From: an uncultured Sphingomonadaceae bacterium
GTDB lineage: Bacteria; Pseudomonadota; Alphaproteobacteria; Sphingomonadales; Sphingomonadaceae
DNA length: 64,000 bases
Direction of reading: 5' to 3'
Assembly: GCA_947493325.1 (NCBI GenBank)
Contig: CANLQI010000002.1
Coordinates: forward strand, 124,001 to 188,000
Shown here: positions 823 through 55,291 of the stretch, in pieces
How positions within the stretch are numbered: the first letter of the stretch is position 1
Layout: each line of letters begins with the position of its first letter
Made by a program: the position numbers and the translations under genes
The notes under the pieces: generated by a model
The model's input: only the letters and a program-made list of their open reading frames with translations
What the model was told of the DNA's origin: nothing
Database searches by the model: none

Positions 823-855
823 GGATAACCAATATTCCTCGCACAAGACAGCGGG

Positions 856-939
856 ACGTCCTTCGACAAGCTCAGGACTAACGGTTTATACGCAAAACCT
901 GAAATAAAATCCGTTAGTCCTGAGCTTGTCGAAGGACGT
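856..939. repeat. Bipartite inverted repeat, copy 1 (29-bp arms 856-884 and 911-939)
   Basis: ACGTCCTTCGACAAGCTCAGGACTAACGG at 856-884; exact reverse complement CCGTTAGTCCTGAGCTTGTCGAAGGACGT at 911-939; each arm also has an internal GTCCT...AGGAC stem. Confidence 0.95.
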
Positions 940-958
940 GCATCAGTTATAAGCAGTA

Positions 959-1240
959 ATGGCTTTTTACACCTATATGCTCAAATGTGCTGATGGCAGC
1001 TTTTATACCGGCCACACTGAAAATCTGGACAACAGGGTCGCAGAGCATAATGCCGGTTTTGTCAAAGGATACACTTTTACACGGCGACCAGTTGAACTGG
1101 TTTGGTCAGAATATTTTCAGACAAGATACGAAGCTTTGGAAGCCGAGCGTCAGATCAAGGGCTGGAGCCGTGCCAAGAAACAGGCCCTGTGCAAATCGGA
1201 TTGGGAAACAATTTCAGCTCTGGCGAAAAGCCGTGCGTAA
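959..1240 (+). CDS. Small GIY-YIG nuclease family protein (UPF0213/YhbQ-like)
   Basis: 93 aa; YTYMLKCADGSFYTGHT...NRVAEHNAG...RRPVELV...EALEAERQIKGWSRAKK retains GIY-YIG core residues (Tyr, Tyr-x-Gly, Arg, Glu). Confidence 0.9.
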   Translation: MAFYTYMLKCADGSFYTGHTENLDNRVAEHNAGFVKGYTFTRRPVELVWSEYFQTRYEALEAERQIKGWSRAKKQALCKSDWETISALAKSRA

Positions 1241-1246
1241 TGCCGG

Positions 1247-1350
1247 ACGTCCTTCGACAGGCTCAGGACTAACGGTTTATGATTGCAGCATCGAAATGAA
1301 TACCTCGAACCTGACCCTATTCCGTTAGTCCTGAGCTTGTCGAAGGACGT
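1247..1350. repeat. Bipartite inverted repeat, copy 2 (arms 1247-1275 and 1322-1350)
   Basis: ACGTCCTTCGACAGGCTCAGGACTAACGG (one change from copy 1) and CCGTTAGTCCTGAGCTTGTCGAAGGACGT; right flank GTATCAGCTATAAGCA matches GCATCAGTTATAAGCA of copy 1. Confidence 0.95.
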
Positions 1351-1438
1351 GTATCAGCTATAAGCACGTGCATAAATGCTAAGACTTCGGCAGGATCAGG
1401 GCCAACGGATCTGGTTGGACGCAGGGGGATAACAGATC

Positions 1439-22497: not shown

Positions 22498-22585
22498 GCG
22501 CATTCCTGCGAAAGCAGGAATCCAGTGCGAAACAATGAAACGACCGCGCCTGTCGCCCTGGGCTCCTGCTTTCGCAGGAGCACTT
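22498..22585. repeat. Bipartite CGTCATTCC-type repeat, copy 3
   Basis: ATTCCTGCgaaaGCAGGAAT (22502-22521) and GCTCCTGCtttcGCAGGAGC (22562-22581). Confidence 0.75.
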
Positions 22586-55201: not shown

Positions 55202-55291
55202 CGTCATTCCCGCGTAGGCGGGAATCCATCTCTCGCACTTTCACCCGGATGCAAGGGCAGGAGTTGGACTCCTGCTTTCGCAGGAGTGACG
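55202..55291. repeat. Bipartite CGTCATTCCCGC repeat, copy 5, between rrf2 and sufB
   Basis: CGTCATTCCCGCGTAGGCGGGAATCCA ... TGGACTCCTGCTTTCGCAGGAGTGACG. Confidence 0.85.

Follow-up and report, generated by a model that had tools for sequence, protein, structure and literature searches.

A small GIY-YIG nuclease gene inside a dimer of hairpin repeats, probably a REPtron-like unit, in a Sphingomonadaceae genome

A gene for a small GIY-YIG nuclease that stands among hairpin repeats in the genome of an uncultured Sphingomonadaceae bacterium raises the question of whether enzyme and repeats belong together as one mobile unit. The intergenic repeats known as REPs have been sorted into GTAG repeats, which are served by RAYTs, and CGTC repeats, which occur mostly as inverted dimers, apparently without a dedicated transposase, only transposase genes having been examined in that study (Di Nocera et al. 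2013, PMC3733652). REPs with a CGTC tag are found widely between genes, in Alphaproteobacteria and in further groups, and CGTC-1 corresponds to the dRS3 repeat of Neisseria (PMC3733652). The locus considered here lies in a stretch of 64,000 nucleotides (the window), for which an earlier note, made from the letters alone, had proposed that the nuclease gene is bracketed by two copies of a palindromic repeat, that the nuclease recognises the repeat hairpin and that the whole behaves as a REP-like unit with further repeats elsewhere in the genome.

The arms and the nuclease reading frame described in that note were re-found at the same coordinates. They comprise a perfect 29-nt inverted pair of arms (856-884/911-939), the same inverted pair with one mismatch (1247-1275/1322-1350) and a direct repeat, given earlier as about 45 bp, that measures 46 nt and is 96% identical between its copies (910-955/1321-1366). 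The statement that the 64 kb hold no other copy stands for arms with up to 2 mismatches, save for a degenerate fifth arm at 1381-1408 (core with 2 mismatches) that had been missed. The earlier phasing, with a palindrome on each side of the gene, was rejected, as 14 other dimers in the genome all show the opposite arm order. Because these copies all run from a '-' arm to a '+' arm, the units in the window were re-phased, and the gene then falls inside the spacer of a single dimer. The natural units are a gene-bearing dimer (911-939, gene, 1247-1275), a gene-less dimer (1322-1350 and 1381-1408) and an orphan right arm (856-884), upstream of which no '-' arm was found. The features of the locus are as follows.

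823..1437, no strand: insertion absent from both congeners, 615 bp, from the stop of the Cu-oxidase_4/laccase gene to the start of the transporter gene
856..884, + strand: orphan '+' arm, probably what remains (the right half) of a decayed dimer upstream
911..939, - strand: left arm of the gene-bearing dimer, tag CCGTTAG facing outward, hairpin GTCCT/AGGAC
939..958, + strand: left half of the dimer spacer (GTGCATCAGTTATAAGCA...), in agreement with the consensus of gene-less spacers
959..1240, + strand: GIY-YIG nuclease gene, UPF0213/YhbQ-like, 93 aa
1247..1275, + strand: right arm of the gene-bearing dimer, tag CTAACGG facing outward
1322..1350, - strand: left arm of the gene-less dimer directly downstream, spacer start GTGTATCAGCTATAAGCA
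1381..1408, + strand: degenerate right arm of the downstream gene-less dimer (AAGACTTCGGCAGGATCAGGGCCAACGG), core with 2 mismatches

The same repeat is dispersed through the genome. The hairpin GTCCTTCGACARGCTCAGGAC, allowing up to 2 mismatches, occurs at 25 places in 2.57 Mb, compared with 0 for a reversed control pattern. Copies read outside the window form 14 gene-less inverted dimers, each composed of a '-' arm, a spacer and a '+' arm (14/14), and the expectation that repeat copies lie elsewhere is thereby borne out. In these dimers the tags (CCGTTAG...CTAACGG) face outward and the gap between cores is 25-75 nt, mostly 25-41; arms of the window type carry the tag in the variants CCGTTAG, CCGTTCG and CCGCTCA. 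The first five bases past the tag in the 28 outer flanks of the 14 dimers are 71-96% A+T, against 43.5% in the surrounding loci, and this AT-rich stretch either belongs to the element or reflects a preference for such targets. The start of the spacer in the gene-bearing unit, GTGCATCAGTTATAAGCA, agrees at 9/12 positions with the consensus of the 30-nt gene-less spacers, a match that was equalled in 4/10,000 shuffles, and it is nearly identical to the spacer start GTGTATCAGCTATAAGCA of the gene-less dimer downstream.

Sequence variation among the arms indicates which feature of the repeat is conserved. In a set of 219 distinct arms, Watson-Crick pairing is found at stem pair 2 in 92% and at stem pair 3 in 87%, compared with 55% and 34% expected if the positions were independent, and the common stem versions include GTCC/GGAC, GCCC/GGGC, GGGC/GCCC and GTGC/GCAC; this excess is missing from the two positions that border the stem. 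For 20 dimers with unlike stems, complementarity is retained within arms (137/160) rather than between arms (83/160). Folded alone, the window arm forms a weak hairpin (4-5 bp stem, z about -1), so that the case for a hairpin in this arm comes from covariation, which upholds the earlier claim that the arms fold internally. What is selected for, to judge from these patterns, is the hairpin of a single arm, its loop and tag being fixed, and this points to recognition of single-stranded DNA.

The product of the reading frame at 959-1240 is a GIY-YIG protein (PF01541, E 7.6e-20, 71 bits versus a cut-off of 22.6) in which the expected catalytic-site residues are intact, Y6, Y16, G18, R26 and E63 being invariant in 22 relatives. 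An AlphaFold2 model of the 93-aa protein is confident (pLDDT 94). Among solved structures, the UPF0213 proteins 1ZG2 and 1YWL lie nearest to the protein in both sequence and fold. With both tyrosines, the arginine and the glutamate of the domain, the nuclease belongs to the small UPF0213-like group of the GIY-YIG superfamily; the 1ZG2 and 1YWL entries of these UPF0213/YhbQ-like proteins carry no assigned function or repeat. No NCBIfam name applies to the protein, and PADLOC gave no match to a defence system. The GIY-YIG homing endonucleases of the I-TevI type have the same catalytic fold, and a homing-like copying of the gene is possible, but the window nuclease lacks their DNA-binding C-terminal domain and an associated intron. 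It is a single-domain protein encoded in an intergenic repeat dimer, whereas a homing endonuclease has a separate DNA-binding domain and a location in an intron or next to the gene it targets.

Comparison with two congeners, 91% and 89% identical at the upstream protein, bears on the history of the locus. The orthologous loci (L183 in genome G067 and L184 in G128) align on both sides and have only 3 bp in place of 615 bp, the transporter gene lying within a few bases of the upstream stop in both; the 615 extra bases of the window hold every arm and the nuclease gene. All 14 gene-less dimers are also absent from the orthologous positions (27 comparisons, two congeners), and some of the empty sites are exactly joined, e.g. 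TTTCCT directly followed by TATCCC. The check for empty sites suggested at the outset thus came out positive both for the gene-bearing unit, in both congeners, and for the gene-less dimers (14/14). At three dimer sites G067 has a dimer of another repeat family instead (L218, L224 and L222 compared with L006, L020 and L001), which suggests that these intergenic positions are shared insertion hot spots. One Erythrobacter genome contains three paralogous units (L092, L100 and L106) that are 70-84% identical and whose homology ends at the outer arm ends, and across clades the unit adjoins different genes, the flanks being read as rnc-era, trmJ and a JAB gene. The discrete boundaries and empty sites by which a mobile unit is recognised are both present, and the unit and its gene-less copies have been inserted at new sites since the split from the sister species. 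As regards a target-site duplication, the sequence GGGATAAC lies near both insert ends (822-829 and 1426-1433) and is absent from the empty site; other junctions are without clear duplication. A RAYT was considered as the mover of the repeats and rejected, as this genome has no Y1 transposase: a search with PF01797 gave no match in it, and control genomes gave matches.

To survey the arrangement more widely, we took the best 80 homologues from a GTDB-wide contig collection, picked by protein similarity alone, and scored bracketing by inverted repeats without reference to the motif (threshold score at least 16). Inverted repeats bracket the gene in 85% of 78 homologous loci, compared with 1/3,607 control intervals (0.03%) in the same loci, a difference that rules against random placement and substantiates the proposal that GIY-YIG genes adjoin the repeat beyond chance. 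In most of these loci a '-' arm precedes the start codon by about 38-50 bp (by about 20-50 bp when the position is given more broadly) and a '+' arm follows the stop after 5-46 bp, and homologues with the gene inside a dimer occur in Sphingomonadales as well as in Methylococcales and other groups. The unit is also far from the single oddity that it was first taken for. Other small GIY-YIG genes in 13 sister genomes are bracketed by their own, different repeats in 27/30 cases versus 0.1% of controls, and across the phylum in 20/28 cases versus 0/364 controls. The genome of the window has five small stand-alone GIY-YIG genes and several repeat families, with nuclease-repeat pairs side by side: GTCATCCTGAACTTGTTTCAGGATCCA brackets the gene at C1:445797 (L028), TTCCTGCGAAAGCAGGAATCCAGAGCG that at C1:754209 (L030) and GTCATCCCCGCGCAGGCGGGGA that at C2:251383 (L031), while a further gene (L029) is ambiguous as to bracketing, unlike these three. 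Two of these other repeat types reach about 38 and about 130 copies in the genome and have covarying stems. Arms of the other types in this genome include TCCTGAACTTGTTTCAGGATC and TTCCTGCGAAAGCAGGAATCCA, and the repeats around the sister genes L155, L163 and L179 carry CGTCAT. Small GIY-YIG genes thus lie inside dimers as a general rule, and each has a repeat type of its own. Two copies of another repeat family (TTCCTGCGAAAGCAGGAATCCA and TTCCCGCGTAGGCGGGAATCCA) lie in the window at 22503-22524 and 55207-55228.

The nucleases are matched to their repeats both in descent and in distribution. Mapped onto a tree of 109 bracketed proteins, arm type has to change 15 times, versus 45 times with shuffled labels, and 0/200 shuffles gave so small a count. 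At the deepest fork (support 100), proteins whose arms bear a CCGTT tag (signature AERQIKGWSRAKK) part from those with arms of the CGTCAT type; two rows in the CCGTT clade are typed otherwise and look like chance motif matches, and the short length of the proteins makes for modest support inside clades. Across 201 genomes of the order Sphingomonadales, in which presence of the nuclease clade was called at E under 1e-30, at least 5 arms are found in 40/47 genomes with the nuclease versus 30/154 without it (p 3e-16). When stratified by genus, the association between the nuclease and the window repeat family has an odds ratio of 28 (p 1.6e-9), compared with a within-genus odds ratio of 2.1 (p 0.17) for an unrelated control family (TGAACTTGTTTCAG), and the latter is 1.0 among genomes rich in the window family. 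In 23/201 genomes 10 or more arms occur with no nuclease of this clade present, and repeats therefore persist, and may move, without the nuclease. The congener G067 is among these genomes; its 34 arms may have been orphaned by gene loss or moved in trans.

We consider it probable that the window contains a REPtron-like unit, in which a GIY-YIG gene occupies the spacer of a hairpin-repeat dimer and the dimer arms are the likely recognition sequence of the enzyme; this judgement applies to the explanation as a whole, including its view of the short gene-less dimers as non-autonomous copies of the gene-bearing unit. The nuclease would bind an arm folded as a single-stranded hairpin, as might form in replication, repair or DNA uptake, and would nick it, after which host repair or recombination would copy or move the segment from arm to arm to new intergenic sites, with no need for strand transfer by the nuclease itself. 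Gene and arms would move as one unit, rarely, and short dimers would move or arise more often; at times the nuclease gene would be lost, with the repeats left behind, or would be trapped by fusion to a host gene. The comparisons above show the anatomy of the unit, its recurrence, the matching of nuclease and repeat, the covariation of the hairpins and the lineage-specific insertion; cleavage of the arms and movement driven by the nuclease are what we infer from them, and the nuclease may be the cause of the insertions, a question of cause that comparative genome data cannot decide. GIY-YIG enzymes hydrolyse DNA and are not known to have a joining activity, a point against this account at the insertion step.

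The main rival is a host function of the Ssn/NTS type, in which the nuclease cuts repeat-bearing single strands (e.g. incoming transformation DNA), the repeats mark uptake or recombination and their spread is a by-product. The Ssn enzymes of Neisseria reportedly cut single-stranded DNA at dispersed repeats and modulate transformation. The covariation of the hairpins fits single-strand recognition, fusions of the nuclease to host genes (described below) suggest that some copies serve the host, and the equation of the CGTC-1 REPs of Neisseria with dRS3 (PMC3733652) also speaks for such a role. Taken alone, it leaves the gene inside the dimer, the homology that ends at the arms and the 14 lineage-new dimers unexplained, and we think it unlikely to be the better account, yet a host role and REPtron-like spread can both be true. 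A homing-like spread, in which gene-less dimers are cut by the nuclease and homologous repair through the arms places a copy of its gene in the break, the gene so colonising repeats that spread by other means, would accommodate a gene in the spacer of an otherwise normal dimer, where the left spacer half matches the dimer consensus, and gene positions that vary between clades while the arms are constant. We regard it as quite improbable: the movement of short dimers would be without an agent in a genome that has no RAYT, and the window site in the congeners is empty of dimer and gene alike, which means that at this site the gene was not copied into an ancestral dimer already in place. The reading of the repeats as ordinary terminators or RNA stabilisers around a repair nuclease, or as chance neighbours, with no recognition by the enzyme, is strongly disfavoured and in our estimate scarcely credible. 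In its favour, REPs are often located where genes end (3') and are able to act at the RNA level (PMC3733652); against it, control intervals of the same loci are bracketed in 0-0.1%, arm type tracks nuclease family and genome-wide copy number tracks the nuclease specifically.

The REPtron-like reading can be set beside the systems it resembles. In the REPtron of RAYTs with GTAG REPs or REPINs, as in the window unit, an enzyme gene is flanked by hairpin repeats and inverted dimers are dispersed, one genome can hold several repeat-specific enzymes, and the enzyme can be lost while the repeats persist. The two differ in the enzyme, which is an HUH/Y1 transposase in the REPtron and a 93-aa GIY-YIG nuclease in a genome without Y1 here, and in the GTAG tag of the REPtron hairpin, which the window arms lack. 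The CGTC REPs are likewise hairpin repeats found mainly in inverted dimers, as is the window family (14/14 gene-less copies), and CGTCAT-type repeats bracket the sister GIY-YIG genes of this genome. However, CGTC REPs have stems of 8-9, loops of 4-5, a CCA tail, a CGTC (TGTC, CCTC) tag and a stem starting AT, whereas the window arms have 4-5 bp stems, 11-13 nt loops, no CCA tail and the tag CCGTTAG or CCGTTCG; the window repeat is a relative that, because of the CCGTT tag and the shorter stem, falls outside strict membership of CGTC-1 to 4. The small GIY-YIG class is the best candidate for the missing dedicated enzyme of the CGTC REPs. A wider proposition would make small GIY-YIG nucleases the dedicated enzymes, in general, of both REP superfamilies, CGTC and CCGTT-type. 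They would then form a second REPtron class alongside RAYT/GTAG, with the dispersal of hairpin dimers driven by a nuclease that hydrolyses DNA but does not join it. This proposition seems to us evenly poised between true and false.

The closest characterised relative of the window system is Ssn/NTS of Neisseria, a family of small GIY-YIG nucleases with dispersed NTS repeats that is reported, in a Nature Communications study of 2025, to cut single-stranded DNA and affect transformation; the same study may already describe repeats beside ssn genes in other species. Both systems combine a dispersed genomic repeat with a small GIY-YIG gene, and recognition of a hairpin or single strand is plausible for the window nuclease too. 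The cleavage of single-stranded DNA and the effect on transformation are reported for Ssn, whereas the window system is known here from genome comparison, which brought out lineage-specific insertion and gene-in-dimer units. The repeat sequence had no match as text in the literature searched, a search for GIY-YIG together with REP, RAYT or palindromic intergenic repeats found no relevant report, and no description was found there of gene-in-dimer units, empty-site movement, genome-wide nuclease-repeat specificity or a link to the orphan CGTC REPs. With a candidate enzyme named, a 93-residue protein and an oligonucleotide of 30 nt are enough to put the question to the test. If the nuclease drives the spread, short DNA would be dispersible by an enzyme that only cuts. 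Sequence-specific nickases could also be drawn from matched nuclease-repeat pairs.

A further outcome is seen in many genomes of Sphingomonas and Erythrobacter, where the reading frame of the nuclease continues across the right arm and into the gene that follows. The products are GIY-YIG-SpoU methylase (TrmJ-like) or GIY-YIG-JAB fusions in which the translated arm forms the linker, e.g. PSTSSGRT or FDTGLRQAQPLLRTNG, and such a fusion would anchor a mobile unit at its site. A SpoU-type fusion is present in the genome of the window itself at C1:507624-507899 (L027), where the arms have decayed. GIY-YIG-JAB/Mov34 peptidase fusions with the linker PSTSSGRT were observed at L080:5001-5696, L067:3304-3999 and L041:5001-5699; Pfam finds both domains in the first two, and the third is a JAB fusion by sequence resemblance only. 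In-frame fusions to SpoU-type methyltransferases (TrmJ-like), mostly by way of a translated arm, occur in many Sphingomonadales and were observed at L053:1767-2825, L087:5001-6086, L128:1501-2565 and L145:1501-2673.
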